Position numbers and translations under genes: made by a program. A stretch of DNA of 64,000 bases from Arthrobacter sp. U41 (GTDB taxonomy: Bacteria > Actinomycetota > Actinomycetes > Actinomycetales > Micrococcaceae), in contig NZ_CP015732.1 in NCBI RefSeq assembly GCF_001750145.1, positions 3,658,001-3,722,000 of the forward strand. The letters run 5' to 3'. Below the pieces are notes generated by a model. The model was given only the letters and a program-made list of their open reading frames with translations, did no database searches and was not told the origin of the DNA. Positions within the stretch are counted from its first letter, which is position 1, and each line of letters starts with the position of its first letter. Below are positions 10,905 through 28,813 of this stretch, piece after piece.

Positions 10905-10973
10905 CGCGCCCCGCAATCCGCCGTGATGCCCGCTCTCGGACGCCGATCCGGGCTGCGGGGTTAGGCTCGCACC

Positions 10974-11432: not shown

Positions 11433-11467
11433 GGCAGTCATCTCGCAACTGTCTGATTGCTCATAGA

Positions 11468-11770: not shown

Positions 11771-11775
11771 CCGGC

Positions 11776-12634: not shown

Positions 12635-12707
12635 CCTATCGGCCAGACTCGTTAGAGACCGCTTCTTGAACGAGAATAGAGGCTGGAGGCAGGAGGGAAA
12701 CTTCACC

Positions 12708-13211
12708 ATGAATACATCCACACCAGCAGGGACTGGACAGCCCGTACCGGAAGAAATAGCCAGCCAGGACCAAGGATCAGCGGAGCAGGGCCCGCGTTCC
12801 AACCGGTCGGCACGCAGGACCTTTACCGCCGAGTTCAAACGCGCGATCGTCCAGGAATACGATGCGGCACCGAACGGTTCCAAGGGCGCAGTGCTACGCC
12901 GCGAACGGCTCTACGATTCCCATATCCAGGAATGGCGGGCCGCGTTCGATGCGGGCAGGCTCGCGAAGCCGGCGGCACGCCGGGGCCGGCCGAAGAACAC
13001 GGACGAGCAGGCCCAGATCGCCCAGCTGACCAAGGACCTGGTCGCGGAGCGGGCCGCACACGAGCGGACCCGCGGGAAGTTGGCTTCCTCGGATGCCGCC
13101 CTGGATACCTTGGGAAAAGGAGTCGCGTTCTTGGAAGCTCTCTCATCGAAGAACGCGCAATCACCAGCACCGCACACCAGTCGTGGCAATCAGCAACCGC
13201 AACGGAACTGA
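12708..13211 (+). CDS. IS3-family transposase OrfA
   Basis: 167 residues from ATG 12708, nine bases after AGGAGGG. The HTH part RRTFTAEFKRAIVQEYDAA at about 35-53 is the standard IS3 OrfA DNA-binding start. A leucine-rich coiled coil follows (QIAQLTKDLVAERAAHERT). The tail after about residue 135 is the part read only when no frameshift occurs. OrfA binds the IS ends and regulates transposition. Confidence 0.85.
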   Translation: MNTSTPAGTGQPVPEEIASQDQGSAEQGPRSNRSARRTFTAEFKRAIVQEYDAAPNGSKGAVLRRERLYDSHIQEWRAAFDAGRLAKPAARRGRPKNTDEQAQIAQLTKDLVAERAAHERTRGKLASSDAALDTLGKGVAFLEALSSKNAQSPAPHTSRGNQQPQRN

Positions 13212-14215
13212 CCGGGCACCTCGGGGTGGTGAGGGCCTGCAGGCTGGTGGGCCGCTCCCGGGCCACCCATCACCGGCAGGCCGCGCCCAAGCCCCGGATG
13301 CACGGGCCCTGGCCCAAGGCCCAGCACCCGGCGGAGCTCTCGCCGGCCGAGCGTGCCGAGATCCTGTCGGTGCTCAACCGCCAAGACTACGCGAACCTTT
13401 CACCGACCCAGGTCTATGTCCGTGAGCTGGACGAGGGGCGGTACTGGTGTTCGCAGCGCACCATGTATCGCGTGCTGGCGGACGCGAAGATGGGCGGGGA
13501 ACGCCGACGGCAAGCCACTCATCCGACCAAGGTGATTCCGGAGCTCATGGCCACAAAACCGTGCGAAGTGTGGTCCTGGGATATAACGAAGATGCGTGGC
13601 CCGGCGAAGGGAATCTGGTATCACGCCTACGTGGTGCTGGATATTTTTTCCCGTTACGTGGTGGGCTGGCGCATCGAGCGTATCGAGGACGGCCAGCTGG
13701 CCGCGGACCTCGTGCAGGAGATTGTCGCCGAGACCGGTGGTAACCCTCCGGGGTACCTGCACGCCGATGGTGGGGCGGCGATGACGTCCAAAGCCCTTGC
13801 CTCGATGCTGGTGGACATGGATATCACCAGGTCGCATTCCCGAGCCCATACATCGAATGACAATCCGTTCAGCGAGGCCCAATTCAAGACCATGAAATAC
13901 ACCTCTGACTACCCGGAACGGTTCGACTCCGTGAACGAGGCCAGGACCTGGATGGAAGGATTCACCGCCTACTACAACCACGAGCACAGGCATTCCGGGA
14001 TCGGCTATCACACCCCGGCCAGCGTGCACTACGGCACAGCCGAGGACGTGCGTGAACAACGCCAGCACACCCTGGACCGGGCGTACGGCGCGCATCCCGA
14101 GCGGTTTGTCCGCCGTCCTGCCGCACCTCCGCTGCCGCTGAAGGCGGCGATCAACGACCCGGCAAAAAGAGCCGCGCCCTCGGTGCATTTACAACAACCA
14201 CTACGTCTCATTTGA
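13115..14215 (+). CDS. IS3-family transposase OrfB (made as OrfAB by -1 frameshift)
   Basis: The frame is open from 12932, but the useful part begins at the slip site near 13115, in the -1 frame relative to orfA. The rve integrase core shows all catalytic residues: Asp in VWSWDITKM, Asp in YLHADGGAAM and Glu in NPFSEAQFKTMKY, with the usual YYNHEHRHSGIGYHTP tail. The length (about 365 residues) is normal for an OrfB. It catalyses cutting and joining at the IS ends. It has no strong independent start. Confidence 0.88.
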   Translation, partial: KRSRVLGSSLIEERAITSTAHQSWQSATATELTGHLGVVRACRLVGRSRATHHRQAAPKPRMHGPWPKAQHPAELSPAERAEILSVLNRQDYANLSPTQVYVRELDEGRYWCSQRTMYRVLADAKMGGERRRQATHPTKVIPELMATKPCEVWSWDITKMRGPAKGIWYHAYVVLDIFSRYVVGWRIERIEDGQLAADLVQEIVAETGGNPPGYLHADGGAAMTSKALASMLVDMDITRSHSRAHTSNDNPFSEAQFKTMKYTSDYPERFDSVNEARTWMEGFTAYYNHEHRHSGIGYHTPASVHYGTAEDVREQRQHTLDRAYGAHPERFVRRPAAPPLPLKAAINDPAKRAAPSVHLQQPLRLI

Positions 14216-14229
14216 TTTGACAAATTCCG

Positions 14230-14233
14230 TAAC
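14230..14233. repeat. Target-site duplication, right copy (TAAC)
   Basis: Matches the TAAC at 12631-12634 on the other side of the IS. Confidence 0.8.
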
Positions 14234-14309
14234 ACGCCGCCTGCGTCTCTTGATCCTTCGCCGTCATGGCCATGGTTAAGCGGTCCATTACCTCGCGTGC
14301 CTGTCCCAT
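14234..14309 (-). pseudogene. SnoaL-like protein, 5' part
   Basis: ATG 14309 follows a GGAGG seven bases upstream and reads MGQAREVMDRLTMAMTAKD..., ending QAACY at the IS junction. This is the usual first helix of SnoaL-like proteins (role: dimerising alpha+beta barrel with a ligand pocket). The frame continues 11 codons into the IS end before a stop, so only a non-functional peptide is made. Confidence 0.8.
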
Positions 14310-14479
14310 TTTTCGACCTCCGTCTACGGGCGGCCTCACGGAAGGGCGGGCCGCTCCATGGCTGGGCTCCTGTTCAAACAGAAACCGATTCAAGTACACG
14401 CCCGGGCAGGAACGAGTGTCAATGGTGCCGGAGTGAGCAAGATGCAGTCCACTTCGACGGGTCCGCCTCACTGAGTCGG

Positions 14480-14660
14480 GAGGTGACATTGCCGGGCGTC
14501 GAGGCTCGCCAACGCGCCGGTACAAGTCGCCCGGGACATGCCGAGGTCGCGGGCCGCCTGGGTGGCCGGCGTTGATCTGGCGGCAGGCGCTCTCGATCTG
14601 GCTGTCGGGGACTGCCCCCCGGCGCCAGCCGATACCGGTGTGCTCTAGGCAAAAGGGGCG
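14480..14660 (-). pseudogene. Remnant of a serine resolvase/invertase C-terminus
   Basis: Two adjacent frames together spell a degraded resolvase tail. One gives RRGAVPDSQIESACRQINAG, and after a shift near 14,570 the next gives ATQAARDLGMSRATC, matching the Hin-type HTH consensus (A..A..LG+SR.T.YR). The catalytic domain is absent. The remaining 300 bp up to the cupin gene and down to the SnoaL start show nothing else. Confidence 0.6.
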
Positions 14661-14825
14661 ATGGGGTCTATATATCATCACGTCAGCTCAGTGCGCTGCC
14701 GGCCCTTCTGCACCGGTGCCGACAGGTAAATTCGCCCGTATCCGAGCGTTTCGACTCCGCCTGACAGCCCGCGGTTGCCGGAGCGTACCCACGACAACAA
14801 GCAGTACCAACCATAGGAGGTCAAG

Positions 14826-15188
14826 ATGCCAGGTTTAGTTCGCAAAAACCTCGATTCGCCCGAGGAGACACGTCCCTTCGAAGGTGGCACGGGCCAACTT
14901 CAACTCGTCAACATGGAACAGGGCGGCGTGGGCCGCGCCACCTTCCTGCCCGGATGGCGCTGGTCCGAGCACGTAAAACCGATCGCCAAAACGGAGAGCT
15001 GTCAGGCCGCTCACATGGGATATTTCATCTCCGGTCGAATGAAGGTCGTTATGAACGACGGCGAAGAAATGGAATATGGGCCGGGAGACTTCGCCATCAT
15101 GGCCCCCGGGCACGACGCCTGGGTATTGGGAGACGAACCCTGTGTCGTAATCGACTGGCAGGGATTCGCCGACTACGCCAAACCCTGA
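14826..15188 (+). CDS. Cupin-domain protein
   Basis: 120 residues with AGGAGGT five bases before the ATG. Cupin signs: W..SEHVKPI at about 44-51, then MGYFISGRMKVVM, YGPGDFAIMAPGHDAWV with Gly-Asp and His of motif 2, and a closing VVIDWQG. It forms a single small beta barrel, and the His and acidic residues could bind a metal. The substrate is not predictable. It stands alone, closed by a very strong terminator at 15231. Confidence 0.8.
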   Translation: MPGLVRKNLDSPEETRPFEGGTGQLQLVNMEQGGVGRATFLPGWRWSEHVKPIAKTESCQAAHMGYFISGRMKVVMNDGEEMEYGPGDFAIMAPGHDAWVLGDEPCVVIDWQGFADYAKP

Positions 15189-15230
15189 CTCCAGGCACCC
15201 CGCACGCCAGGATTGCAGGGACCTGGCCAG

Positions 15231-15279
15231 CACCAGCCATCCCTGCCGCTGCGCCACAGCGGCAGGGATGGCTGGTGCG
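15231..15279. terminator. Bidirectional terminator with 22-bp perfect stem
   Basis: Arms 15231-15252 and 15258-15279 are perfectly complementary over 22 bp with a 5-nt loop. It lies 42 bp after the cupin stop. It can fold in either transcript, so it would also end a gene arriving from the minus strand. Confidence 0.75.
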
Positions 15280-15299
15280 CGTGATGATGATCCCTCCAG

Positions 15300-15661
15300 C
15301 CTCGCCACGGTGACTTCACGGAACACTGAATCGGAGCATGGCGCTCCGCCGCCGCCGCACGCATCCACTGCCACGCCGTGGTGGCCCACGTCGATACCAG
15401 GGCCGCACACAGCTGACCCTGGCCGCCTTCAATCAAGCCCTGCCAGCCTGGCTCCGCCTCAGCGCTCCCGACGCCGGCCGGCGCCGTCCTGGTCACGACG
15501 AACAGAACGCCGGAGACCTCCGCTGCCGAGGCCTCCATGGCCGAAGTCAAGACCATGAACACGTCAGTCGCCTCGGCGATAGAAGACGCGGCTTCGCTCC
15601 CCGAACTCACGGCAGCAAAATCAAATAATTGACCTGCACGATGGCGAGAAAACTCCACCAT
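15300..15661 (-). other. Gap with a doubtful minus-strand ORF
   Basis: The stretch 15,280-15,812 holds no confident gene. A minus-strand frame from ATG 15661 encodes LFDFAAVSSGSEAASSIAEA followed by an Ala/Ser-rich helix-like run and a late W.WM. The amino-acid mix and length (about 110 residues before it runs into the terminator) recall small ESX/WXG-like secreted proteins, but the motif is not clear and the frame has no stop before the hairpin. It could be a decayed gene. Confidence 0.25.
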
Positions 15662-15812
15662 TCAGCGGGACGAAACCGGGACAGACTCGAGTTCCCCATC
15701 AGATCCAGGCGACCTCCCACGCCGGCTTGGGATTGACGCCACTTGATGCTGCAGCGTCAACTTAGGGACGAAACAGCCATTTCCGTTGGGTCACTTCGTA
15801 ACTGGAGGCACC

Positions 15813-16694
15813 ATGACTGCTGATTTGCACGCGAGCGAGGGCTATGTCGAGGTCCGCGGCGGCCGGGTCTGGTATCAGGTGGTTGGCGATGGATTGAAAA
15901 TTCCGCTGGTTACCGTCCACGGCGGCCCAGGAGCCACCCACGACTATCTGGAACCGCTGACGGCTTTGGCCGACGAGCGGCCGGTCGTGTTTTATGACCA
16001 GCTGGGTGCCGGGAAATCGGACGTCCCGGACGATGTGAGTCTTTGGACCAATGCCCGACTGGTCGAGGAGCTTGGGGCGGTCCTCGACGCAGTGGGATCA
16101 CCGAAGGTCCACTTGCTCGGCCAATCGTGGGGGACAACCGTCGCCGCCGAATATGCGCTGCGTTCCCCGGAGCGGCTGGCGAGCTTGGTCCTCGCCGATC
16201 CCTGCCTGAGCATTCCTCGCTACGCCGCCGGCGCTGCAGCACTCCGCGCAGCCCTCCCGGCCGACGTGCAGGTGGTCCTTGACCGCCACGAGGCCGCCGG
16301 CACCACTGACTCCGAGGAGTACCAGGACGCAACGATGGAGTTCTATCGGCGACATGTTTGCCGATTGGATCCGTGGCCGGATTCGGTGATGCGTACATTC
16401 GGTCAGCTGAACCGCACGATTTATGAGCGAATGCAGGGTCCAAACGAATTTGTTATCACCGGCACCCACAAGGACTACGACATCACTGATCGGCTCGGAG
16501 GACTGACTGTCGCTACTTTGTTTGTTTGTGGGCGCTATGACGAGACACGGCCGGAGGACACGGAGTTCTACCAAAGCCTCGTACCCGGATCCGAACTGGT
16601 GATCTTCGAGGAGAGCAGCCACCTACCTCATCTTGAGGAGCCCGAGCGCTACGCCCAGGTGCTTCGGGGATTCCTGCACAGGTGTGAGACGTGA
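15813..16694 (+). CDS. Proline iminopeptidase-like alpha/beta hydrolase (S33)
   Basis: 293 residues from ATG 15813, which has GGAGGC six bases before it. Motifs: oxyanion HGGPGATHDYL at about 35-45, YDQLGAGKSD, nucleophile GQSWGT with Ser at about 104, Asp in VCGRYDETRPED, and His in ESSHLPHLEEPE. The HGGPG, GQSWG and DQ.G.G.S set is characteristic of peptidase family S33 prolyl iminopeptidases and related esterases. It would act in the cytoplasm on N-terminal Pro peptides, or on small esters or amides. Peptidase versus other S33 activity cannot be settled here. Confidence 0.85.
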   Translation: MTADLHASEGYVEVRGGRVWYQVVGDGLKIPLVTVHGGPGATHDYLEPLTALADERPVVFYDQLGAGKSDVPDDVSLWTNARLVEELGAVLDAVGSPKVHLLGQSWGTTVAAEYALRSPERLASLVLADPCLSIPRYAAGAAALRAALPADVQVVLDRHEAAGTTDSEEYQDATMEFYRRHVCRLDPWPDSVMRTFGQLNRTIYERMQGPNEFVITGTHKDYDITDRLGGLTVATLFVCGRYDETRPEDTEFYQSLVPGSELVIFEESSHLPHLEEPERYAQVLRGFLHRCET

Positions 16695-16733
16695 CCCAGA
16701 CCCAGCCCCGCACGGATGTCGTTCATGGCCCTG

Positions 16734-18150
16734 GTAGTTCTCGGACACGTAGGCGTATGCCCGGTCAAAAAGCTCGCCGGACGCGGGCAGCCCGTACCGG
16801 ACCAGGACTTTGCGGATGGCAATACGGACGGCTTTATCGCCTTCCTTGGTGTTGTTCCAGCCGTCCCAGCGGACTTCCTTGACGATGGCGTCGATGTCGG
16901 CAACGACCTTGCCGACAATCACAGGCGCGTCCTCCGGCTTGTACTCCTCGAAGATCTGCGTCAGAGCGCCGACGTTCGGGTCAGGCAGCAGGTCCAGACC
17001 GAAGGCTCCGGACTCATCCTCGGCTTTCTCCGCCGTCGCAAGATCCCGGGCCAAATCCAGGAGGTCCCGGAGGAAATCCACGGAGTCGTGCGCCTTCGCC
17101 AGCTGGCGTTCCCGCAACCGTTCCAGACGCTCCGAGAGCATTTTGTATGCCGGGTGAACGCCGTTGTCGCCTTCGAGGCGTTTGCGCAGCCGGGTGGCGA
17201 TGTTGTCGATCACTTCCCCGGCGGGGGTCACCGTGGTGTCACCGGTACCCTCGTCAGGGTCGATAACCCCGGCTTCGATGAGGCGCTTGATGGTGCCTTC
17301 GTCAGCAATGACGACGTCGACGCCGGTGTCGCTGACGGTCACCTCGCCGATGTGGCCGTGGACGAGCTCAAGGGTTTTGGCACCCAGGCGGTGCCAGAGA
17401 AGATCCCGGGTGTCATCGGCCGGTGCGACGGAGGCGTACACCTTGGACAGCCATTTGTAGTCGGCCCGGAGCGCTTCCAGGCGGAGGTCCGGGTAAGCAA
17501 CCTCCCAGATGCCCTGCAGCATCCCGTACTGGGCAGCGAACCGCGCCATCGCCTGATCGTCCGGTATCCGGTCGTGGGCGGCCTGCAGGGTCGCAAAGCC
17601 GCTGGAGGTGCGGTCGATGCCGGCGAAGCGGTCCAGGACGTTGGCGATCTCTACTTCGAACTGCTCCAGGAGCGCGGCCGTCTCGATTTCCTTGCGGGCG
17701 TGCTCCGGGTTGGCCGGGGACATTGCCCGGGCGAAGCCGTCACCGAGCCCGATGTAGTCCACTATCAGTCCGTAGCGCTTCTCCTGGCCGGTAGCCGGGT
17801 TCTTTCCAGTTCCTGTTGGTCCGGGTGATCGTCTGGTAGAGCGTGTGGAGCTTCATCGGCTTGTCCAGATACATGACGCCCTCAATGGGTGCGTCAAAGC
17901 CGGTACCCAGCTTGGAGGTGACGACAATGAATTTCAGCGGGTCGCCGAGCTGGCGGAACCGGTTGAGGATGGCCTCTTCCTTGTCATCGGTCAGACGGAA
18001 CGACTGCCAGTCGGCAGCGTCCTTGGGTATCCATTTCCGGCGTCAAGCTCAGCCTGAACATCAGTGCCTACGACGTAGAAGCCATTACTGCGGGCCATTG
18101 ATTCCCGTGAGGTGACAGGCCGCTGGCCCGTCCGCACCGAAGTTACCACC
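16734..18150 (-). pseudogene. hsdR: hsdR (type I restriction endonuclease subunit) C-terminal remnant
   Basis: The final third of HsdR is readable but broken. The first segment on the minus strand is RPVTSRESMARSNGFYVVGTD (about 18,130-18,040). A one-base loss near 18,035 shifts to IPKDAADWQSFRLTDDKEE...TSKLGTGFDAP with helicase motif VI-like TLYQTITRTNR. A one-base gain near 17,805 shifts again to DYIGLGDGFARAM... and the HsdR C-terminal domain, ending FDRAYAYVSENY at 16,734. The normal stop is lost, and the frame runs on into the hydrolase gene. The nuclease and most of the helicase are missing. No hsdM or hsdS is seen. Confidence 0.85.
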
Positions 18151-18224
18151 CAAGCCTCCTAACGGAGCTCGCCGGGCCGACTGACCAAAAACTGGCCTAA
18201 TATGGCCGGCATCACACACGCGGG

Positions 18225-18256
18225 CCACTTACACCCCATGAGTGGGCTGTAAGTGG
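18225..18256. repeat. Long hairpin, possible element cis site
   Basis: CCACTTACA and TGTAAGTGG form a perfect 9-bp outer stem, and CCCA/TGGG an inner stem with a 4-nt loop, separated by one unpaired base per side. There is no T tract, so a terminator is less likely than an origin or oriT-type cruciform. The rest of the 18,151-19,588 gap has no gene. Confidence 0.45.
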
Positions 18257-18565
18257 GTCAATAACGGCCCCGTGCCGACCACGAGAAGCGCAGCTGACCG
18301 ACAGCGGGACAAGTCTGGAGGATTGGACCGGACAGACACCAGGAACAGCCCGCTTCGGGACCACGGTGGCCGCTTTCTGGGTCACAAATGACTAACAAAA
18401 TGCAGCCTGTCGGCCGCATCTTGCTGTCTCTGGATCACCGAGGAGTGGCTGCCATGTTCAGTGGTTCCCCCAATGGCCGGGATTTTCGTCGCTTTGCGGT
18501 CATTTTTCGCATTCAGTGACGGTGACGTTGGTGAATCTAGTTACGCTCGCGAATCCAGTTACGTC

Positions 18566-18606
18566 GTTTCGTTTCGTTCGTTTCGTTTCGTTTCGTTTCG
18601 TTTCGT
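18566..18606. repeat. Pentanucleotide microsatellite (TTTCG)n
   Basis: About eight tandem copies of GTTTC/TTTCG with one shortened unit in the middle, in otherwise non-coding DNA. Simple repeats like this can vary in copy number by slippage. No gene overlaps it convincingly. Confidence 0.9.
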
Positions 18607-19071
18607 TAGCGGCCTGATTATGCTGGCGACGTGAGGACCGACTGACATTTGCACAACGCCGCTCTTGTGCACATCGCCACCAGCACCAGCGCCGACAAGG
18701 ACGCCACGGAGACGAAAAGCGCCCGCCGAGCCGCCCTCCGCAACCCCGTACCCCTACGGTCGAGCCAGGGGCGGCAACGAAACGGGGAAGGCCCATAGGG
18801 TTATCTCCGCCCAGCAATGAGCGGACGTTTTGCGCAGTGTTTGCCCAGCTCAGTTGGATTCTCGCCCCGGCACTCGCGGAAGGGCTCAAAATTCTCTCTC
18901 GACGCAGGACACCCGGGCAAGCGCGGATCGGCTCCAGAAGAACAAAGAGCGCGCACTTCGGCTTCAAGCTGCCTTGGCGTCCTGAACAATCAAGAATGTG
19001 ACTAGCCGGTCTTCAGTCGGATGAAGGTTGTTCAGGTGGGAAGGCCGTCAGGAAAAAGCAGGGCCAAGCTC

Positions 19072-19343
19072 GTAGCACTTACGTAGACCTTTTTCCGAAG
19101 CGTGCTACATAAGTGCTACTCCTTGAACATTGGTTTACCAGTACTTTTCGTTGAATGTAGCACTGTAGTACTTGTAGCACTTGATTTCTCACATATATAT
19201 ACACGCACGCATGTAAGAGCAATCTATTTCTGGATCCGCAAGTACTACAGTGCTACGCGAGAGCCGATTCGCCTTGTAAACGAGTAAATAATGCGAAGCA
19301 CTTTGCGCCAGAATGCACTACATAAGGCGCTACAAGGTGCTAC
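19072..19343. repeat. GTAGCAC/GTGCTAC repeat cluster, candidate replication origin
   Basis: At least seven exact copies of the heptamer occur in about 270 bp in both orientations: 19072, 19102, 19113, 19157, 19174, 19250 and 19337. Near-copies GTAGTAC, GTACTAC and GCGCTAC also occur. The stretch is AT-rich compared with its surroundings, including a run of TATATATA at about 19,194. This is how iteron origins look. It lies in the same element as an SF3 helicase gene. The function is inferred. Confidence 0.55.
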
Positions 19344-19588
19344 AAGGTGCAGCCCACCATCTTCCGACCTGAGCTTTTCTTCCAGAAGCGCGAACACCGC
19401 ATCGCCTTTCCTAGCAACCGAGCCCATCAGGTTCCGGCCTGAAGCACCGCCTTTCAAGATAGCTCGGACTCCGGCCGGTGCTGATCCGGCTGGCCTGTTG
19501 TTGAGCCGGGATTGGGTTCAACTACGCAGAATGCCTGAATGGTATGTCATAGCTTTCCGGCATTTCTTCTGTGTGCCATGTTTTGGGC

Positions 19589-20932
19589 CTAAATTTCGGG
19601 ACTGTACTCATGACCTGGATTAGCTACTGGGTTGACCTCAGCCATGGATTCCTCACGAGCCGCTTTCCTGACCGCTCTCTGATAGGGGGTCAACGGCGCA
19701 GAAACCTTGGGCAGCTCTGGGGGTTTCAACGGGGCTTGGACAAGCTCGGGGGCGACTACCGGCCCGGAATTGGCAACAGGCTCTGCGGGCTTTGCAGACT
19801 TGCTCTGGAGCAAAGCGAGCTTGTCCGCAAAGCTTGGTTTCGCTACCGGTGGCAGTGCTGTGAAGGTTTCTACGGGCCTAATGGATTCCGGGAGGGCATT
19901 GGGCGCTTCCACGGGCTTTGAGGCCGTTACAGCTGCAATCTGGGCCATCAGGGCATCCTGGTGGCGCTCGGTCTCCAACCATGACTCAGTTTGGTCTATG
20001 CCAAGTATCACTGGCACCGGCAGTGGCACCCGCACAGCTGTAGCCGGCTGACGCCTGCGAAGTTCAATGGCTTCGTCGAGTGCGTTCATCGTGAAGCTAG
20101 TCCCCAGCGTAGAGGCGCGACGCTTGCGTCCACGCACAGGTACTCCGTCATCATCCAATGGTGCATAGCTCAGGCCACGGCCCTTCTCACCGCGTTGCCG
20201 GGCATCGACCTGGAACTGCTCACGCATCACCACGATGAAATCATCCAGTGAATCAACCTCTGAACTGTCGATCCCGTGACTAATCCGTCGCTTGAGATCG
20301 GCCTCCCAAGACACCGGCTCAGCATCTGTGAAGTCTGTACCGGCGGCAACGGCTTGCTCCTTGTTCGCCTCCCACAGAAGACGGTCCGCAGCAATCTTTC
20401 GCTCGGCGGCAGTGATGTTGTTCTCGGCATGATTCTTGAGCACAACCGTCTGATCAAAGCCTTCGACGGCAAGCACCCTGTCATGTTCGCGGGCCAGCTT
20501 TGAGTGCATCACGATCGAGGAATCCAGAGACCGGCCAGTTCGTGTGTCGAGTGAATTGATCACGATGTGATTGTGCAGGCAGCCGGTCTTACCGTCGATC
20601 TGCGTGACCACGAGAAACATACGCCCTGGAAATCTGTCGTGCGCAAGAGCAATTCCGAGCGCATGAGCGCGTTCCTGGTCGCCGGGATCCTTCGGATCCA
20701 GTTCATTCAATCCGAAGCTCTCGATGACGTGGTACGCCTGGACAAAACCAGTCTCTTTGTTGAACCTTTTGCGTGTGTCCGTGAATTGCTGTCTAGCCCG
20801 CTTCGGGATACAACCGCCCAAGCCAGACGCTGCCACATAACGCGTTCCCGGCGACTGGCCGACCTTCTCGTTCAACACGTAATTGATGAGCGCTCCAGCA
20901 GTGCGTGAGGGACTGCTGACGACGATGGCCAT
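19589..20932 (-). CDS. MOB-family relaxase (MobA/VirD2-like)
   Basis: 447 residues. The N-terminal half has relaxase signs: the MAIVVSSPSRTAGALINYVL start, motif II AYHVIESF, and motif III with histidines CLHNHIVINS at about 143-152. The Pro/Ala-rich C-terminal half (after about 290) is probably a flexible linker with a KLALLQSKSAKPAEP-type coil. The enzyme should nick oriT and pilot DNA during mobilisation by a helper transfer system; no full type IV system is in view. It starts 3 bp after the mobC-like gene. The exact MOB class is not assigned, but MOBP is likely. Confidence 0.85.
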   Translation of the reverse strand: MAIVVSSPSRTAGALINYVLNEKVGQSPGTRYVAASGLGGCIPKRARQQFTDTRKRFNKETGFVQAYHVIESFGLNELDPKDPGDQERAHALGIALAHDRFPGRMFLVVTQIDGKTGCLHNHIVINSLDTRTGRSLDSSIVMHSKLAREHDRVLAVEGFDQTVVLKNHAENNITAAERKIAADRLLWEANKEQAVAAGTDFTDAEPVSWEADLKRRISHGIDSSEVDSLDDFIVVMREQFQVDARQRGEKGRGLSYAPLDDDGVPVRGRKRRASTLGTSFTMNALDEAIELRRRQPATAVRVPLPVPVILGIDQTESWLETERHQDALMAQIAAVTASKPVEAPNALPESIRPVETFTALPPVAKPSFADKLALLQSKSAKPAEPVANSGPVVAPELVQAPLKPPELPKVSAPLTPYQRAVRKAAREESMAEVNPVANPGHEYSPEI

Positions 20933-20935
20933 GGA

Positions 20936-21433
20936 TCACCACCTCGTCGATGTTGCAGTGGCCACTGTCCGTCCAATGCTGTCCAACTTTTCATTGAGTA
21001 GCGTGAGCTGGGCCTGAGCTATCTTGATGTCGCCAGCAGCACCGCCGGAGTTAACCCGAGCAGCGATCTGGTTCACGTTCCGGCCCACTGCGCGGAGCTC
21101 CTTCTGAACGTCATTCATGCCGGTGGAAACATCTTCCAACGCACTCACAACTTCGTCAGTGAACGAGACGACGTTCTGCCTATTGGACATCTCCGTCAGC
21201 TTCTTCCCGCCGTTGCGTACCATCGTCCGAACCGCAGTAGAGAGCGTCACCTGCTTCGCGTTCGGTGCCGCTGCCTGGAGCGTGGATTGCACCCGTGCAA
21301 CCACCGCCAGCTCTTCCGGTGAAAAGCGCACCGTAAGAGCACGGGTGTACAACGAGAGGCGCTTCCTTCGACCTACGGAATCCACACCGGACTGCGTCCT
21401 TGATGTGTCTTCCGTAGTCTCACTCTGGCTCAT
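20936..21433 (-). CDS. MobC-like relaxosome protein
   Basis: 165 residues with GAGAGGGAG just before the ATG. The N-terminal half holds a ribbon-helix-helix-like segment LTVRFSPEELAVVARVQ (about 34-50). The C-terminal half has the MobC signature LRAVGRNVNQIAARVNSGG at about 117-135, followed by a helix. Such proteins open the DNA at oriT and help the relaxase bind. The position next to the relaxase fits this role. Confidence 0.8.
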   Translation of the reverse strand: MSQSETTEDTSRTQSGVDSVGRRKRLSLYTRALTVRFSPEELAVVARVQSTLQAAAPNAKQVTLSTAVRTMVRNGGKKLTEMSNRQNVVSFTDEVVSALEDVSTGMNDVQKELRAVGRNVNQIAARVNSGGAAGDIKIAQAQLTLLNEKLDSIGRTVATATSTRW

Positions 21434-21548
21434 AGCTCCCTCTCGTACTGTTACCTTCCACCCTAGTTGCCTGTGCGGTGGACAACAATGCGGCGAGCAG
21501 TTTATTTGTCATACATTCGCTGCGCTCATTCCTTCCAAATAACTGTCG

Positions 21549-21576
21549 CCAAGGGGAGGCTACGCCATCCCCCTGG
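21549..21576. other. Candidate oriT
   Basis: CCAAGGGG and CCCCCTGG make an almost perfect 8-bp inverted repeat around AGGCTACGCCAT, about 115 bp upstream of the mobC-like gene. An oriT with an inverted repeat next to the nick is expected just upstream of mobC-relaxase operons. The nick position cannot be read. The surrounding gap (21,434-22,058) has no clear gene; a plus-strand frame at about 21,640-21,750 (RQKDVNEGETAVARELA) may be a transposase scrap. Confidence 0.4.
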
Positions 21577-21990
21577 ACCCCCTCCCGGCACCTCGGTCAC
21601 CGTGGCCGGCGCACGGCAAAGCATCCAGACTGCACGCACGTTCCGTGGCCTTTGAGGAACGCCAAAAAGATGTCAATGAAGGTGAGACCGCCGTTGCCCG
21701 CGAACTCGCCGCCTGTTGCTGGTCCTTGGCCGCGTCTGAAGGTACGCCGTTCCATGGCCTCGAAGTGATCCCCCAGACGTGCCCGGCGCGCGCAGCCGGA
21801 ACAGGGGCCCGTCTCGAGCCGACACGAGACAAGGCTATGGGTGGGTCCGAATCGGACGCCCGAATTGGACCACGATGCGCTCCAGCAAATTCATTGCCAC
21901 ACCGTACCCAACCTGCAGTTCTCAGTCTGACCGCGTCATCGGCCATGACCGGCCTCACCAGGCCCGACGCCACCGCCGGTGCATGAGAAG

Positions 21991-22024
21991 AGCGGCTCCC
22001 GGAAACTAGCTATCCGGAAGCCGC
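21991..22024 (-). terminator. Terminator after the SF3 helicase operon
   Basis: A 12-bp stem with one mismatch (GCGGCTCCCGGA / TCCGGAAGCCGC) starts about 35 bp after the helicase stop on the minus strand. No long T tract follows, as is usual in high-GC actinobacteria. Confidence 0.5.
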
Positions 22025-22058
22025 CCAGCTAAGGCGAGTGAATGTTCTTACATGTCAG

Positions 22059-23906
22059 TTACAGCGCGATCGCATCGGTACCGTCCTCGTCGTCGTCGCC
22101 GGCCGCTACCGCGACCGGCTGGCAACGCAAGAGTCCGGCGTAGTTGGCCTTCAGGGGATACGGCACTGCTCGATGATTTACCGCGGTTCCTGTGTACGAC
22201 GTGTTTGTCCAGTCTCTGAGGTCGTACTCCACTATCAGCGGCTCCGGGCTGGACATATGGCGAGCAGGACGCATGGATTTAGTGCCCATGTGGTCCCATT
22301 TTGCAGACTTCGCGAGATGGGTCTTCAGGAAACTCGTAAGAGAGGTCTGGGAACCCGGTCGACCATCCGGATTGGTCTTAAGCGTCCACGCCTTCCACAG
22401 ATCGTAGATGAAACCGAACGGCAACAAGTCCCAGACAAATTGATCCTCGAATTCCCTCCAAAACAAGATCCTCGGATCATTCACCTCCCGGAACTCATCG
22501 AGTTTGGCCTTACACAGCGCAGGCATGCTCAGCTCAGTGTGCCTCATCTGCAGCGCACGCTTGAGCACGTAGCGCAGCACATCGTCCCGTTGCAGGTAGT
22601 CGCCTTTGATGTACGTACGCTCCACTCCGGTGAAACATTTATCGAAGGGTATGAGCAGGAGACGGCGGAGGAAGGACTCAGATTTGTCCTTGATCCTGGG
22701 GAACTCATTCAAACACTGCACCATGAAGCCCCAGTAGCGGTAGGGGATGGGTTTCTTGTGCTTGCGGTTGATGGAGAAAACGTCGTTGGTAATGACAGCC
22801 TTGATGCTGGCTGCTTCGTCGATGAAGGTGCCCACGTCGTTCTCGTCGACGATGATTGCGCTGGTCGTTATGAGTGGTTCCAGCAGGAAGTCCTTGCCGA
22901 AGTCCTTGATTGACAATGACGCCGTCGAGCTCTCGCCCACCAAGTTGGCCATGAGCTGGCTGAGTGTGCCCTTCCCGTTGTTACCCATCTCGGCATAGAA
23001 CCAAGCTGACTTATTCCAGCGCACGTTCGGCCGGACGATGGCACTTTGCAGCTCCCAGAGGAGCTCCACGATCTCGGGGTCGTCGGAGAGTTCAGTCATC
23101 CAGGACTCCACGTCCCACATCTTGCCGTCTGGCATCTCGATTAAAACGTTCTGCGCGGTCTCGTCGTATGCAATGCATGACGCCCTTGCCAGGAAGACAT
23201 ACTCAGGCGAGAACGGCTCCAGCATCTGGCTCTCATGGTTCCAGATGCCATTGGCTACGACGCTCAAGTGCGCCACGGGATTACCGTTTGAGACGGACGT
23301 TACCGGGGCCTCCCGGAGGAGCCTTTGCATAATCTCGTTGATTCCGGCCAGGTTCATGTTCGGGCTGTACCGCGCAATCACGCTTTGCAGACCCATCTCG
23401 GAGGTGTCGTAAAGCCCCTCGTAGGGGCCGTCCGTATGGTAGATCGCGAGCATAGCTTGATCACGCTCCTTCCCAGCCGCCAGCACCGCTTTAACACAGT
23501 GCAACCGCTCGACGATCTTGGCCACCTGGACATTCGCGAGGCACTGGGGAAGCGTAAGCATGATGCCCTTCGATACCTCACGGTTGGCCTTCATCGGCAC
23601 GCGGAACATGTTCTCGTATTTGAACGCCGCGTGCGTACGGCTGACCAGATCGACCTCGATCTCGCCGGGAGACGGAGGACTCGACGGGTCCAGTGCGTCC
23701 AGGTACTTCGTAGTGACCTCGATGTAGATCTGCGTTTCGGTCCGCTGCATGCCCTGACTCCGGTGTTTGTCAGGAGCGGCCTCGGGCGGTGCAACAATCG
23801 TGGAATCAGGGGAAATGTCGTCTGCTGTAGACTTAACAGGAGCGCCGCCAAACGCTTTTTCTTGGGCCGCCTCGTCTCCGACGGGGCGGCTTTTTGTTTC
23901 GGTCAT
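22059..23906 (-). CDS. SF3 helicase / D5-type replication protein
   Basis: 615 residues from the ATG at 23906 that overlaps the upstream stop (ATGA); a start two codons earlier is possible. The D5_N-like region lies before Walker A, read here as AEMGNNGKGTLSQLMANLVG at about residue 315. Walker B-like AIIVDENDVGTF and the SF3 sensor FMVQCLNEFPRIKDKSESFLRRLLLIPF follow. This is the plasmid/phage primase-helicase type (P4/D5 family). It would melt and unwind an element origin. It has no clear primase catalytic motif in its N-terminal 200 residues. It is the last gene of the integrase-side operon. Confidence 0.85.
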   Translation of the reverse strand: MTETKSRPVGDEAAQEKAFGGAPVKSTADDISPDSTIVAPPEAAPDKHRSQGMQRTETQIYIEVTTKYLDALDPSSPPSPGEIEVDLVSRTHAAFKYENMFRVPMKANREVSKGIMLTLPQCLANVQVAKIVERLHCVKAVLAAGKERDQAMLAIYHTDGPYEGLYDTSEMGLQSVIARYSPNMNLAGINEIMQRLLREAPVTSVSNGNPVAHLSVVANGIWNHESQMLEPFSPEYVFLARASCIAYDETAQNVLIEMPDGKMWDVESWMTELSDDPEIVELLWELQSAIVRPNVRWNKSAWFYAEMGNNGKGTLSQLMANLVGESSTASLSIKDFGKDFLLEPLITTSAIIVDENDVGTFIDEAASIKAVITNDVFSINRKHKKPIPYRYWGFMVQCLNEFPRIKDKSESFLRRLLLIPFDKCFTGVERTYIKGDYLQRDDVLRYVLKRALQMRHTELSMPALCKAKLDEFREVNDPRILFWREFEDQFVWDLLPFGFIYDLWKAWTLKTNPDGRPGSQTSLTSFLKTHLAKSAKWDHMGTKSMRPARHMSSPEPLIVEYDLRDWTNTSYTGTAVNHRAVPYPLKANYAGLLRCQPVAVAAGDDDEDGTDAIAL

Positions 23907-24523
23907 CCCCATGCACCGCCCAGGAGGGAAGCTAAGCGGCCTCGCTGCTGGCGCGTCAGGCCAGCCGAAGCAGCATCCAGCTGGACGAGAGCCCCAGCAA
24001 CGCTGTCATCAGCGTCGCCCGGGTCCTTCCCGGCCGCTGCCCCAGCCTCTGCCAAGCGAAGCCAATGCCTACCCCGGAACTTGTGTGCGGGCAGACGCCC
24101 CTCCCTGATGTGCTCACCAAGGGAATTCGGGCTGCCATAACCCAACTCGCTGAGCCTGGGCAGCGTGAACAGGCCCAAGAGAGCCACAAAATACGCTTCA
24201 TCCTGGGTAGTGAGCGGCTGCGCAGTTGCGGCATCACACTCTCCTGTGGCCTTCAGACCGTCAGGAGCAGTTGCTGCCCGGTCATCGAGGCTATCAGCGG
24301 CAGATTCAGCTGTAGCTTCGAGGCCTTCCTTCACTGGCTTAGGTGTCGTCGCGGTCAGGGGCTGGGCACCTCCCAGCATGGAGGCGAGGCGAGGGCGCTG
24401 TTCGGCGGATAACGGAGGAGCCTCGGGGGCCACGCTCTTAGCAGCAGCAGCGCTCTTTGCCGCGGCCGGTATACGAGCAGCTTCGACGTCTGCCGGCTTT
24501 GACTCAGGTGTCGTTCCCGTCAT
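23903..24523 (-). CDS. Element protein with MerR-like segment and repeated LGGA motif
   Basis: 206 residues. The first 70 are Ala/Pro-rich. The centre, LPRLSELGYGSPNSLGEHIREGRLPAHKFRGRHWLR at about 120-157, looks like an excisionase/MerR winged HTH (helix, GRLPAHK, wing). A short motif occurs twice: LSAEQRPRLASMLGGA at about 38-53 and LTRQQRGRLASLLGGA near the C-terminus. A variant ends the upstream neighbour. Both ends overlap their neighbours by ATGA, so all are translated together. It is likely an excision or replication accessory factor, which is inferred from context. Confidence 0.6.
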   Translation of the reverse strand: MTGTTPESKPADVEAARIPAAAKSAAAAKSVAPEAPPLSAEQRPRLASMLGGAQPLTATTPKPVKEGLEATAESAADSLDDRAATAPDGLKATGECDAATAQPLTTQDEAYFVALLGLFTLPRLSELGYGSPNSLGEHIREGRLPAHKFRGRHWLRLAEAGAAAGKDPGDADDSVAGALVQLDAASAGLTRQQRGRLASLLGGAWG

Positions 24524-24834
24524 CGTGAAGCACCTCCGAGGGCAGATGCGAACGTCGATACAATCAAGTCACGCTGCTCGGGCCTCAGCGGCGGTGCAGC
24601 CGCTGCCATGCGCTCAGCCCAGGCTTTCAAGTCCTCTGTTTTCGGGACGATCACATGGGGTGCGATGGAGGCATCAAGATTCGCCTCGGTGACGAAGACC
24701 TTGCCACCGATCTTGACGGCGGGCAAGCGCCCGTCACGGATATAGCGACGAAGGGTGATGACACTGAAGCCGCTACGCTCAGCAGCAGCTTGAATGGCGA
24801 TGTAAGGGGTTGTGATAGATGCGACGGCACTCAT
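24520..24834 (-). CDS. Excisionase-family HTH protein
   Basis: 104 residues. Its ATG overlaps the upstream stop as TAATG (24834). The winged HTH IQAAAERSGFSVITLRRYIRDGRLPAVKIGGKVFVT occupies about 13-48, the standard excisionase/MerR-like pattern (helix, turn, GRLPAVKIGGK wing). The C-terminus LRPEQRDLIVSTFASALGGASR carries a looser version of the LGGA motif of the next gene. Likely role: bending DNA to switch the serine integrase to excision, or a repressor. Confidence 0.75.
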   Translation of the reverse strand: MSAVASITTPYIAIQAAAERSGFSVITLRRYIRDGRLPAVKIGGKVFVTEANLDASIAPHVIVPKTEDLKAWAERMAAAAPPLRPEQRDLIVSTFASALGGASR

Positions 24835-25049
24835 TAGAGCACCTCTTCCGCGGTGCTCTGGTGTTCCTGAGCAAGCAGCCAGGTATCGACTGCCTCGGTC
24901 CGGTACCGGGTGGTCTTGCCCAGTCGGATATACGCGGGGCCACAACCCCGCATGCGCCACTCACTGAGAGTGCGCTCGTTCACGTCGAGGCGCTCAGCGA
25001 GCCTGGCGGGAGTAAGCAGATTGCTGGAAATGGAGATGGACGTAGACAT
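24834..25049 (-). CDS. AlpA/excisionase-like HTH protein
   Basis: 71 residues. The HTH LLTPARLAERLDVNERTLSEWRMRGCGPAYIRLGKTTRYR (about 11-49) is the classic AlpA/MerR-like excisionase fold: 'tpaelAe.l.Vs..Tl..Wr..G.GP.yirlGk..RYr'. It begins the operon that continues with two coupled small genes and the SF3 helicase. A perfect palindrome 75 bp upstream may be its operator. Confidence 0.85.
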   Translation of the reverse strand: MSTSISISSNLLTPARLAERLDVNERTLSEWRMRGCGPAYIRLGKTTRYRTEAVDTWLLAQEHQSTAEEVL

Positions 25050-25123
25050 AGCTGAATCCCTTGCTGCTTTTCAGCGGCAAGAGGACCAGCTGACGAGTCG
25101 TCTCAGGCTTCTATGTCAGCTGT

Positions 25124-25137
25124 GCACCATACGGTGC
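25124..25137. promoter_or_regulatory. Inverted repeat in front of the excisionase operon
   Basis: GCACC, four bases, GGTGC: a perfect 5-bp inverted repeat 75 bp upstream of the AlpA-like start. A minus-strand TACAAT (25,210-25,215 on the plus strand as ATTGTA) could be a -10 box farther upstream. The remainder of the 25,050-25,356 gap shows nothing else. Confidence 0.35.
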
Positions 25138-25356
25138 GCATCCACTTGGCGGGAGATCATTCTCCCTTCCCCTTGTGATCGTTTTCGGGGCGTCTTACAT
25201 CTCACCACGATTGTACACAGATAACCGGGCAATCACGCGTTCAAGGCGATATGCCAACTTGACCGGAATCATCCCTGCCTGCGGCGCCAGAGTGTTGATG
25301 GGCTGCACAATTTGCCGGACTGCGGCGAAGATCCACTTCTGGGTATGGGAGAGAGT

Positions 25357-26910
25357 TCAACGCCAAATAGGGTCAACCCGATCTCTGTTGATACCCCTTT
25401 GGCCCTTCGAGTCCGGGCCCACGCGGTTGATCCTCGGCGTCACCACGGCGCGGATGACCCTGCGTTTGTCCGCCAACTCAAGTGCGTCCCACCCCCTGAG
25501 AATGGCACCGCCCTGCACTAGTCGAAGCACCAACGGGTCCATCTCAGAAAGCTGTTCCAGCCGCTTTTGGGCTGCTTTGATCTTTGGCTGAATCCTGGCC
25601 TCTTGGTCAAGTAGGAGATCAAACCGTAGCTTCTCGGCTGCTTCCATGCGAACGTCGTCCAGATATTTCTGGTAGCCGGCGATCTTCGCCAAGACGGCCT
25701 GACGCTCGGCGTCAGTGTCTTTGCCGGGCTCCCCACCCCCGGTGAGGAAGTCTGGGCGGGCTAACCGCGCCAGCAACAACCCAGTGACCACCTCGTCCAG
25801 GTGCTCTTGCCGCATCGCCACGTGGAAGCCGGTCTTACCGGGTACACCAACGCAAACGTAGGAGTTATAGTGCGGATATGGCAGTTCATTGCCGTGTTCG
25901 TCAACGGGCTTGGGCAGGGGTTCTCCTGTCACCTTGTCTTTGCGCCGTCCGGCGTTCTGCTTCCCGATGCGCGCCGGCGCACCGCAAACGCCGCACACTG
26001 CGATGCCCGTCAGCAAGTACCTTGCTGGCCAGTCGTTCGTCCTCTTGCGCTCCGGAGGGCTCATGATCACCTGCAACTTCAACCAGGTATCAAAATCAAT
26101 CAGTGCAGGCCACATCGCTTCTACATGACCGAGGATCTCACCCCGGTGCTGACGCTTCCCTGCGTAGGCTGGCATGGTCAGCATTTGCTTGACCGCTGGT
26201 GCTGTCCAGCCTAGATTCGATCGGTGTTGCTTTCTGGTCGGACGCCTCCGCTCTACACCGCGCTCGTTGAAGTCCTTTGCCACTGCATAAAACGACTGGC
26301 CCTCCAGGATGCGCCGAGCCGCCTCTTGCACGATTGGCCCCTGTTCAGGATGGGGTTCTATGCGCTCCAGCTCGCCGGTCTTTTGGTCATAGACACGGTG
26401 GTAGCCGTAGATGTTCTTCCCATGTGGGCGGCCCCCTTCAGCAGCAGCTCGAACGTCGCGCTGGATGCGTTCTGATGACTTGTCGCTCTCGTACTCGGCA
26501 TCAACGGCATCTTCCAGCAGGCTACGCCGATCCCGGGCGTTAGACGGGTCATACAACCTGCCATGTGTCGTTACCCAGATGCACACGGTTCGCTCTTTGC
26601 ACAGTTCAACTAGGTCCACCCACTCACCGACCCGACGGGAGCCACGACTGGACTCCCAGATTGCGAGCACGTCAGCGTCGAAAGTGTCTTCTTCAAGGTC
26701 CGTGATCAAGCGCTTGAAGTCCTCACGGCCTCTGCGTGCAAAGCGGCTAGCACTGCGGTCCGTGTCGCGGTACGGCGGGTCTGGGTGCAATAACCAGCCC
26801 TGTCGATCGAACGCATTGACGTTCTCATCGTGCTGCTGATCGGGGCTTTTGCCCGTTCCTTTGCTGTCCTTGGAGACCCGCAAGTACTCACGTACGATCA
26901 AACTTTTCAT
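25357..26910 (-). CDS. Large serine integrase
   Basis: 517 residues from ATG 26910, which has GGGGGTGGGT before it. Resolvase domain at about 1-145: REYLRVS gives catalytic Ser 13, and DVLAIWESSRGSRR carries the partner arginines. Recombinase domain at about 165-270 (GKNIYGYHRVYD... TAPAVKQMLTMPAYAGKRQH). Zinc ribbon CGVCGAPARIG ... YVCVG at about 305-355. A coiled coil at about 410-450 controls direction, and a C-terminal tail follows. It should catalyse integration of the island between attP and the attB in comEC. The gene begins just inside the right attachment site, the normal place for such integrases. Confidence 0.93.
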   Translation of the reverse strand: MKSLIVREYLRVSKDSKGTGKSPDQQHDENVNAFDRQGWLLHPDPPYRDTDRSASRFARRGREDFKRLITDLEEDTFDADVLAIWESSRGSRRVGEWVDLVELCKERTVCIWVTTHGRLYDPSNARDRRSLLEDAVDAEYESDKSSERIQRDVRAAAEGGRPHGKNIYGYHRVYDQKTGELERIEPHPEQGPIVQEAARRILEGQSFYAVAKDFNERGVERRRPTRKQHRSNLGWTAPAVKQMLTMPAYAGKRQHRGEILGHVEAMWPALIDFDTWLKLQVIMSPPERKRTNDWPARYLLTGIAVCGVCGAPARIGKQNAGRRKDKVTGEPLPKPVDEHGNELPYPHYNSYVCVGVPGKTGFHVAMRQEHLDEVVTGLLLARLARPDFLTGGGEPGKDTDAERQAVLAKIAGYQKYLDDVRMEAAEKLRFDLLLDQEARIQPKIKAAQKRLEQLSEMDPLVLRLVQGGAILRGWDALELADKRRVIRAVVTPRINRVGPDSKGQRGINRDRVDPIWR

Positions 26911-27919
26911 ACCCACCCCCTTTGCAAACAGTAACACCGCTGACGGCAGTCAGGTGGGTCATGCCGACGGACTTCATGGCGGCGTCCAGCCCGGCATCCA
27001 GGGTGCTGGTGTCGCCGGTGACCATTCCCGGCAGGAGACCCCGGGCGTCGCCGTCGAATCGCCCGGCGGCGGCGCTGAAACGGTCGCGGAGCTCGCCCGG
27101 GCCCCGCAACCAGGGCCCGGGGACACTGAGCCTATGCGGGGCGGAGCTGGCCGAAAGGACGGCCGCTTCCGGCTGGCCCGGCTCGGGCGGCTTCAGCTTG
27201 CCGGTCGCACGGATCCGCTGGCCCGGGGCTGCATGCTCCCAGTCCGCGCCACCCAGGACCAGCAGCCTGGCCTGCGCCTGGACGCGGCGCGAATCGAAGG
27301 TCATTTCGACCAAGGTGGCCGGCACCGCCCACCGGTCCGCGAGTCCGGAACGGCCGGGGGCCTTGAGCCGCCGGGGTGCCCCCGTTATGTCCACTTCCAC
27401 AGCGACGGCTGTGTGCGCGGCGGCTGCGGCGGCCACAGCACCGTCGTGCCGCCGGGAGGAGTCGGCGGCACCGTGACCGCCCGCTGCAGCGGCGAGAAGC
27501 AGGGCCACGGCCATCGTCGCGTGGAAACTTCGCCGTGCCGGTTTGCCGGTCCGGCGTGCTCCGGCCGGGAATACCACCCTGAGCAGCTGTACTCCGCCGG
27601 CCGCCACAAGGGCCAGGCACAGCGCGGCCAGCGCCGCGGGGTGCAGCTGGTGTCCCGCGGCGGCCATTGCCCACACCAGCACTGCGGCGGGGACCAGGCG
27701 TATGTCGGTCCGGCGCGGCGTTTCCTCCCGGGCCGGGGCGGGGCGCTCCGGACGGGCGAACGGCGGAAGCCGGTCACGGAGCCGCGTCCCCGGGCGTTGC
27801 TGCCAGCCAGCTGGCGGATGGTCCGGTGCGGCCTGCGCGGGCGCCGGAGAGCCAGCAGATCCGGGCAGTCGGACCACCGCGGCGTCAACATACTGCTGCC
27901 AGCGGCTCCGCTTTCCCAT
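26888..27919 (-). pseudogene. comEC: comEC, N-terminal part (interrupted by the island)
   Basis: 343 residues, of which about 328 are ComEC and the last 15 are read from the island. Two or three membrane helices lie at about 75-160, then an OB-like domain (VTGAPRRLKAP ... RIRATGKL), then the start of the competence domain GLLPGMVTGDTSTL ... MTHLTAVSG. The channel-forming segment and the metallo-beta-lactamase-like domain are missing. ComEC is the DNA import channel of natural competence, so uptake should be abolished while the island is integrated. It starts 12 bp after comEA. Confidence 0.88.
26930..26938. other. Right attachment-site junction in comEC
   Basis: comEC homology reads HLTAVSG and then leaves the family, where ComEC proteins normally continue with Ala or Leu-Asn/His. 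The change falls at the Gly codon (26,936-26,938). The 2-bp crossover core cannot be fixed without the other junction or an uninterrupted comEC. Confidence 0.65.
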
Positions 27920-27931: not shown

Positions 27932-28813
27932 TCACACCCGGACCAGGGGCAGCAGCACCTCAAGCAGCTTGGGCCCGAACCCGTCCACGGCGTCCAGCTC
28001 CTCTATCCGCTGGAAGTGGCCGTGCTGCGTGCGCCACTCCACGATCCGTTGCGCCAGCACCGGACCGACGCGCGGGAGGGTTGCCAGTTCCTCGAGGCCG
28101 GCCGTGTTCAGGTTGGTCTTTCCGGTCGCAGGAGGGGTGCCGCCGGCACCCGTCGGGCTTCCCCGGGCCCCGTCGCCCGTCGGAGGAATCCCGGGCTGGA
28201 CCGTTTCACCCTGCCGCGGCACCAGCACTTTTTCCCCGTCGGCGAGGACGGCCGCGAGATTGAGCTGGTCGGGGTCCGCGTCCGGAGCGCCTCCCCCCGC
28301 CGCCGCAATGGCTTCGTGCAGTCGGCTCCCCTGCGGCAATTCCACAATTCCGGAACGGACCACCGCCCCGGCCACATGCACGATGATTCGTCCGGGGGCA
28401 ACGCCCCCGTTTCCGCCGTGGGAAAACTCCGCAGCGGGAGTCGGTCCGGTGTCAGGTTCGGGGGCCGGCGTTTCGTCGGCTTCGGCCGCTTCTGCAGCCT
28501 CTCCGGCGTCGTTGACAGAGCTGAGCGGGCTGACGGCCTCTGTGACGTTCGCAGCCTGCCACCAGAACCAGCCCAGGAGCGCCATGGAGGCCAGGCACAG
28601 CAGCGCGGCGGCCTGCCGTCCGGTGCGCCACCGGATGCGGGGTCCGCGGCGACCCGGCGGATCGTCCGCGGTCCCCTGTTCCTCGGCCGGTGAAACCAGC
28701 GGCGGCTCCCGGAGCAGGCCCGTTCCGTCACCCGAACGAACGGCGGAGTACAGCCTGCGGCCGGCCGGCCCCGGTTCGTCGCTGGGTGGGTTGTCGGGAA
28801 CGTGGCGCGGCAT
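27932..28813 (-). CDS. comEA: ComEA-family DNA-binding protein
   Basis: 293 residues. A single membrane helix AALLCLASMALLGWFWW lies at about 69-85, preceded by a basic, Pro-rich cytoplasmic tail. An SLBB-like domain at about 140-190 (IIVHVAGAVVRSGIVELPQG) and a C-terminal double helix-hairpin-helix (TNLNTAGLEELATLPRVGP, ... FGPKLLEVLL) complete the standard actinobacterial ComEA layout. It sits on the outer face of the membrane and binds DNA for hand-over to ComEC. It is intact, but its partner is interrupted. Confidence 0.93.
   Translation of the reverse strand: MPRHVPDNPPSDEPGPAGRRLYSAVRSGDGTGLLREPPLVSPAEEQGTADDPPGRRGPRIRWRTGRQAAALLCLASMALLGWFWWQAANVTEAVSPLSSVNDAGEAAEAAEADETPAPEPDTGPTPAAEFSHGGNGGVAPGRIIVHVAGAVVRSGIVELPQGSRLHEAIAAAGGGAPDADPDQLNLAAVLADGEKVLVPRQGETVQPGIPPTGDGARGSPTGAGGTPPATGKTNLNTAGLEELATLPRVGPVLAQRIVEWRTQHGHFQRIEELDAVDGFGPKLLEVLLPLVRV

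Follow-up and report, generated by a model that had tools for sequence, protein, structure and literature searches.

A probably mobilizable 98.9-kb island divides the competence gene comEC of Arthrobacter sp. U41 at a codon that is also cut in other genomes of the genus

The comEC gene of Arthrobacter sp. U41 is divided by a 98.9-kb island, probably mobilizable, which was very probably inserted by its own large serine integrase into an attB site inside the gene, with crossover at a GG dinucleotide in the Gly codon of the HLTAVSG motif. The window analysed was a stretch of 64,000 nucleotides whose position 1 corresponds to position 3658001 of the 4.79-Mb genome (G000); coordinates refer to the window unless given as genome positions. 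The N-terminal portion of comEC lies at 26939..27919 on the minus strand and was recognized by a Pfam match to DUF4131, by its frame and junction, and by its rejoining with the other half. An intact comEA with SLBB and HHH_3 domains (Pfam) is directly upstream (27932..28813, minus strand). The open reading frame at 26888-27919(-) encodes ComEC up to ...HLTAVS and then runs through island DNA to a stop at 26888. The frame departs at 26937-26938(-), inside the AVSG codons (...MTHLTAVSG), bearing out the original prediction that comEC is cut precisely in this motif.

The prediction placed the second half of comEC to the left on the minus strand and was to be abandoned if that half was absent from the genome. 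A PF03772 profile search located it on the same contig and strand, outside the window (genome 3585351-3586067(-); profile 27-268, E 1.1e-26), 98,880 bp from the N-half; open reading frames past it resemble holA and rpsT. Inside the window, PF03772 matched over profile positions 1-32 only (genome 3684930-3685025), below the family cut-off. When the flanks were joined at one common GG, a single gap-free ComEC frame of 648 aa resulted. Alignment across 26,930-26,938 with uninterrupted relatives, as had been proposed, revealed an in-frame empty site: the joined AVSGANCSL junction aligned without gaps to 12/12 intact relatives, taken from 30 comEC loci. The frames of comEA, the integrase and each comEC half are open.

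The crossover dinucleotide (GG; CC on the plus strand) occupies 26937..26938 of the minus strand, is common to both junctions and forms the symmetry centre of the attP arms. Its position was the same in the junctions of relatives, except in G008 and G220. The N-side junction reads CTGACTGCCGTCAGC-GG-TGTTACTGTTTGCAAAGGGGGTGGGT, with the integrase ATG immediately after, and the C-side junction reads ACCCACCTCCTTTCGTAACAGTCTCT-GG-CGCCAACTGCAGC; the crossover points are at genome positions 3684938 and 3586058. The island ends together form a symmetric attP of 26 bp + GG + 26 bp, the arms of which match as inverted repeats centred on GG at 19/26 positions. The integrase-proximal arm (26911..26936, minus strand) ends in GGTGGGT 19 bp from GG. 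The motif ACCCACC stands 19 bp from GG in the attP arms and 14 bp from it in intact comEC genes, in which it is written by the Thr-His-Leu codons of THLTAVSG. Placing the crossover instead at the GT within GTC (ACTGCC[GT]C on the N side, ACA[GT]C on the C side) was considered and dropped, since the two attP arms would then differ in length by 12 bp, and with GG they are equally long. Integration in a tRNA gene was rejected because the window contains no tRNA; no RNA feature reached Rfam gathering scores in window positions 1-31000.

The motif spacing recurred in relatives. At least 6/7 positions of ACCCACC were found at -26 from GG in 20/24 C-side junctions, compared with 4/24 at the next-best of 30 offsets, and the motif was found at -21 in 14/17 intact comEC loci of the genus and in 0/17 at the other 23 offsets; these sequences are related, not independent, and the attB motif doubles as codons of a conserved protein motif. 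Twenty-eight C-side junctions had been processed; of these, G008, G220 and G189 were left out because their integrases are of a different lineage, and G127 because its register had slipped, although its sequence has the motif. The off-motif junctions were G225 and L012 (5/7), G335 (3/7) and G284 (2/7). N-side arms fitted less well, with 7/11 reaching at least 5/7 at +19, and no clear motif was seen by eye in the downstream half-site of attB. For the Listeria integrase, the distance of the zinc-ribbon (ZD) motif from the centre is described as 5 bp shorter in attB than in attP (PMC3783163). The U41 sites have the same design in one attB half-site, with a dinucleotide-symmetric attP of about 50 bp and a ZD motif 5 bp farther from its centre than that of attB. 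This match, in which the motif of comEC is made up of the Thr-His-Leu codons of THLTAVSG, accounts both for the choice of this point and for the large number of species that qualify.

The integrase itself has 517 aa from the ATG at 26910 (25357..26910, minus strand) within an open reading frame at 25357-26937(-). A Resolvase catalytic domain (PF00239, E 3.1e-17) is followed by a Recombinase domain (PF07508, E 7.9e-14), both over cut-off. A large serine integrase starting at the junction had been predicted, and its start codon indeed lies 26 bp from the crossover. The PF13408 zinc ribbon had no match in this protein at E 1e-3 and was matched in the G008 and G189 integrases. A phage origin of the integrase was set aside, as a search of viral contigs returned no relative and all 655 matching phage records were below 60% identity (best 8 of 655 at 33-34%).

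The island spans genome positions 3586058-3684937 (98,880 bp). Its integrase-proximal 27 kb make up window positions 1..26936, and the remainder lies left of the window (genome 3586058-3658000). GC content is 62.9%, against 66.8% in the left flank (8 kb) and 67.4% in the right flank (35 kb). Behind the integrase, all on the minus strand, are a small HTH_17 protein that is a candidate excision factor (24834..25049; PF12728, E 4.1e-8), another HTH_17 protein (24520..24960; PF12728, E 2.4e-8), a P4-type primase/helicase (22059..23912; TIGR01613, 144.6 bits with a cut-off of 108.7; DUF5906), a MobC-like mobilisation protein (20936..21433; PF05713, E 7e-5, 23.6 bits and barely above the cut-off of 23.2) and a MobA/VirD2-type relaxase (19589..20932; PF03432, E 1.7e-16). 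The relaxase matched 419 plasmid records, all below 60% identity. Deeper cargo includes a type ISP/IIG restriction-modification protein, an IrrE-type peptidase gene, two heavy-metal P-type ATPases, a multicopper oxidase, a phosphoketolase and others. A Pfam scan of 24 island proteins, about one third of the 71 genes roughly predicted (gene counts are approximate, because prediction worked poorly in some stretches of the island), detected no conjugation-channel domain and no phage structural domain (capsid, portal, terminase, tail). These domain matches point to a probable integrative mobilizable island, with the excision factor and mobility as putative assignments. The island also carries a CoiA-like nuclease, of a competence-linked family (genome 3648187-3649200; L008:4187-5200), and a transposase-like open reading frame, IS630-like by eye, about 0.6 kb inside its left end.

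Among 206 genomes of the genus searched, one per species, 202 had a PF03772 match, and comEC was split at this codon in 15/202, making chance or an assembly error very unlikely. No cut at this codon was found in the other 187/202. Among the matches listed in this search, first-match rows begin at profile position 1; a repeat search of the weaker-scoring genomes covered 55, of which 51 had a match, and a further genome, G032, was uncut. The split genomes were G000, G003, G008, G012, G068, G108, G109, G122, G127, G154, G189, G199, G207, G220 and G225, and their main PF03772 match began at profile positions 23-30, or at 54 in G127. Junction sequence was read on the C side for every one of the 15 and on the N side for 11 of them (12 sequences); the N sides all retained HLTAVSG and then diverged. 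Where the halves shared a contig, they were separated by 8.4 kb (G189), 31 kb (G012), 118 kb (G207), 194 kb (G154) and 227 kb (G108). Breaks elsewhere in comEC were seen in G130 and G144. G093 was rejected as a possible split; its HLTAVSGANC is intact and its N and C parts are in different frames. A sample of the family comprised 149 genomes, 8 from this genus; in it, G284, G335 and G339 of other genera had a C-half beginning at the same GG, as read on the C side; G339 has the ACCCACC motif, and G284 and G335 do not.

A serine integrase stood at the junction in 5/15 split genomes (G000, G068, G008, G220 and G189), three of these integrases (G008, G220, G189) belonging to the other lineage. A large serine recombinase lies within the span in G108 and G154, and probably in G225, G199 and G127; its presence between the halves could not be judged in G003 and G109. 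No PF07508 recombinase was present between the halves in G012 and G207, or anywhere in the genome of G122. The original prediction had named the same truncation in relatives without the integrase as a finding that would count against it, and G012, G207 and G122 are such relatives. Their C-side junctions nevertheless retain the attP motif (6 or 7 of 7), and because it persists we read them as islands that may have lost their integrase or been integrated in trans. In G207, a degenerate serine recombinase was seen 1.7 kb outside the halves (L084, about 674-2035, minus strand), just upstream of the comEC N-half and near the expected place of comEA. By eye, the 8.4-kb element in comEC of G189 (L069, 477-8186) encodes, besides an integrase, a capsid-like and a long tape-measure-like protein, and it may be a phage satellite or the remnant of a phage.

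The search for relatives of the window integrase gave 18 loci, 10/18 of which adjoin a comEC half. The integrase match is 12-30 bp from the comEC C-half at five (L010-L013, L023) and 2.6-5.1 kb from it at five more (L018-L022), distances measured between matched segments. Nine of these ten records are from Microbacteriaceae, and L013 is an unplaced MAG. The other 8 loci had no comEC half in the locus DNA examined. Among them, L016 and L024 sit in the DNA that separates the two comEC pieces in G108 and G154, L017 is on the contig bearing the comEC N-half of G199, and L025 is inside the split region of G127, provided that this chromosome is circular. L014 and L015 have a different junction. At L026 and L027, a non-comEC half-site, ACCCACC (or ACCCACT)-N14-GG, is joined to an attP arm around 9944-10144; the integrase fragment there marks a likely secondary attB. 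DNA beside the L017 and L025 integrases resembles the island terminal sequence on the comEC N side of G207, a likeness that suggests head-to-tail accretion of islands.

An integrase 73% identical to that of U41 occupies the corresponding position in G068. The integrase lies on the N-half side in G000 and G068 and on the C-half side in L010-L013 and L023, and in all seven the C-half meets an ACCCACC-N19-GG-type arm (5 to 7 of 7). A core inverted relative to the integrase gene would explain these opposite sides. The G008, G220 and G189 integrases, 31-34% identical to the window integrase, formed a separate lineage, supported at 100/100, in a tree built from 20 integrases (L025-L027 left out). 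This second lineage cuts the same stretch of comEC in three genomes; the C side of G008 and G220 keeps THLTAVSG, and the crossover must therefore lie about 20 bp or more upstream.

The U41 genome has three PF07508 recombinases in all; for the two besides the window integrase, the distance from the start (start codons assumed) to a break in comM/yifB is about 25 and 15 bp. This gene, next to dprA, is in three pieces at genome 3959726-3988698 (L088, L089, L094, L095), corresponding to relatives' residues ~482-511 (3959726-3959815), 36-485 (3970227-3971582; named YifB by TIGR00368) and 1-41 (3988576-3988698). The gaps between the pieces, 10.4 and 17.0 kb, are each a serine-integrase element. All three large serine integrases found in U41 thus adjoin cut competence-linked genes; we know of no role of comM in the transformation of Actinobacteria. 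In 60 genus genomes, 45 of them a non-random choice, comM was cut or its frame short in 4/15 comEC-split and 7/45 other genomes, which gives no clear link between the two cuts. The comM frame is about 513 aa in most of the 60 and 231-342 aa in G004, G060, G069, G076, G083, G107, G127, G129, G154 and G225; in G004 it departs at the Walker A GPPG.

From sequence, we propose that the integrase, with predicted catalysis, would recombine the island attP with attB inside comEC. The Thr-His-Leu codons are predicted to supply its ZD binding motif ACCCACC 14 bp from GG, the attP arms holding it at 19 bp. While the island is present, ComEC and natural transformation would be off. The integrase, together with an excision factor, could remove the island exactly and restore comEC, and mobilisation may proceed via a helper's conjugation channel. 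Inactivation of ComEC by the island is the most likely outcome, and natural transformation is probably abolished by the cut: with almost the whole Competence domain missing from the N-half, DNA uptake is expected to be lost. Micrococcus luteus belongs to the same family as Arthrobacter. Its transformation is reported to be abolished by comEC deletion (PMC4322843), making likely, by analogy, the predicted loss of DNA uptake while the island is present. Excision restoring comEC is possible in principle; no excised circle or same-strain empty site was seen in the sequences examined.

Blocking transformation may benefit the island. On another account, which we regard as possible but on the doubtful side, comEC is struck only as conserved HLTAVSGANC DNA available in nearly every host, and lost transformation is a by-product with no benefit to the island. 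The attB motif does consist of codons of a conserved protein motif, L026 and L027 lie outside comEC with a left half-site of the same design, L014 and L015 have their different junction, and comM and comEC cuts show no clear link (4/15 against 7/45 in a non-random draw). However, this stretch is also cut by a distant integrase lineage (G008, G220, G189), and comM by two further integrases of U41.

It is unlikely that this lineage could already do without comEC and that the island is a fixed relic. The cut comM of the same genome and the transposase-like frame near the island's left end would fit a dead locus, but both comEC halves, comEA and the integrase remain open, 187/202 genus genomes have no cut at this codon, and the dprA domain match is nearly full length (3-210 of 212). 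Still less probable is a reversible switch resembling the comK prophage of Listeria, in which the island exits under set conditions, restores ComEC and reintegrates. The empty site is exactly in frame, and the integrase of G000 and G068 follows immediately on the N-half in the orientation of comEC, where transcription from comEC could extend into it. Against this, the integrase of L010-L013 and L023 is on the other side and divergent from the C-half, several split relatives have no integrase nearby, and the halves are 118-227 kb apart in G207, G154 and G108.

SCC-type cassettes are islands of varied cargo at one codon, some without their own recombinase. Several different islands likewise occupy one comEC codon, some without a recombinase of their own, but target and recombinase family differ: the CcrA model gave only a weak match in the island (21.5 bits, cut-off 700). 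In Listeria, comK is the target of A118-family integrases. The attP/attB architecture with a zinc-ribbon motif shifted by 5 bp is like that of the A118 family (PMC3783163), whereas target gene and host are different and the 24 scanned island proteins have no phage structural domain. The original prediction knew of no such insertion in comEC, and here it was wrong. Streptococcal Phi1207.3 (formerly Tn1207.3) carries serine recombinases and has its integration site, a GA dinucleotide, in comEC/celB, where it impairs transformation; Phim46.1 and Phi10394.4 likewise lie in comEC/celB, and the same site is used in S. pyogenes and S. pneumoniae (PMC4260502, PMC4288039, PMC10383233). Excision of Phi1207.3 restores transformation at a low level (PMC10383233). 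Both systems are elements with serine recombinase at one dinucleotide within comEC, but Phi1207.3 is a prophage of streptococci with a GA target and three recombinases, whereas U41 is an actinobacterium with a mobilizable-type island, a GG core and one integrase known. In Piscirickettsia, comEC is reported to be cut by transposable elements (PMC12955456).

Recurrent insertions at orthologous sites, even by divergent integrases, are described for comYC, comFA, comK and comM and interpreted as a block to chromosomal curing (Croucher et al. 2016, PMC4774983). U41-type islands similarly recur at an orthologous site in a competence gene with divergent integrases. In the consulted portion of that article, comEC appears only as the pneumococcal mefA-cassette case, with no actinobacterial case among those it gives (PMC4774983); among the matches listed in the open-licence literature, no actinobacterial comEC integration was found. 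A broader reading, quite conceivable though a little short of an even chance, is that distant serine-integrase elements of Micrococcales converged on competence genes and disarm transformation, with comEC a sink for islands of up to 100-200 kb or more. It takes in the two lineages on one comEC stretch, the others on comM, the three elements in U41, and the supposition that transformation could delete the elements.

The finding extends competence-gene integration from streptococci, Listeria/Bacillus and Gram-negative species (PMC4774983) to Actinobacteria, among which Micrococcus luteus provides a transformable model. It pins an attB carrying a measurable motif to a single codon, in a stretch struck by two integrase lineages, and offers integrases with a broadly conserved target gene. 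The hypothesis that such elements block chromosomal curing would be testable with natural pairs of split and empty comEC.
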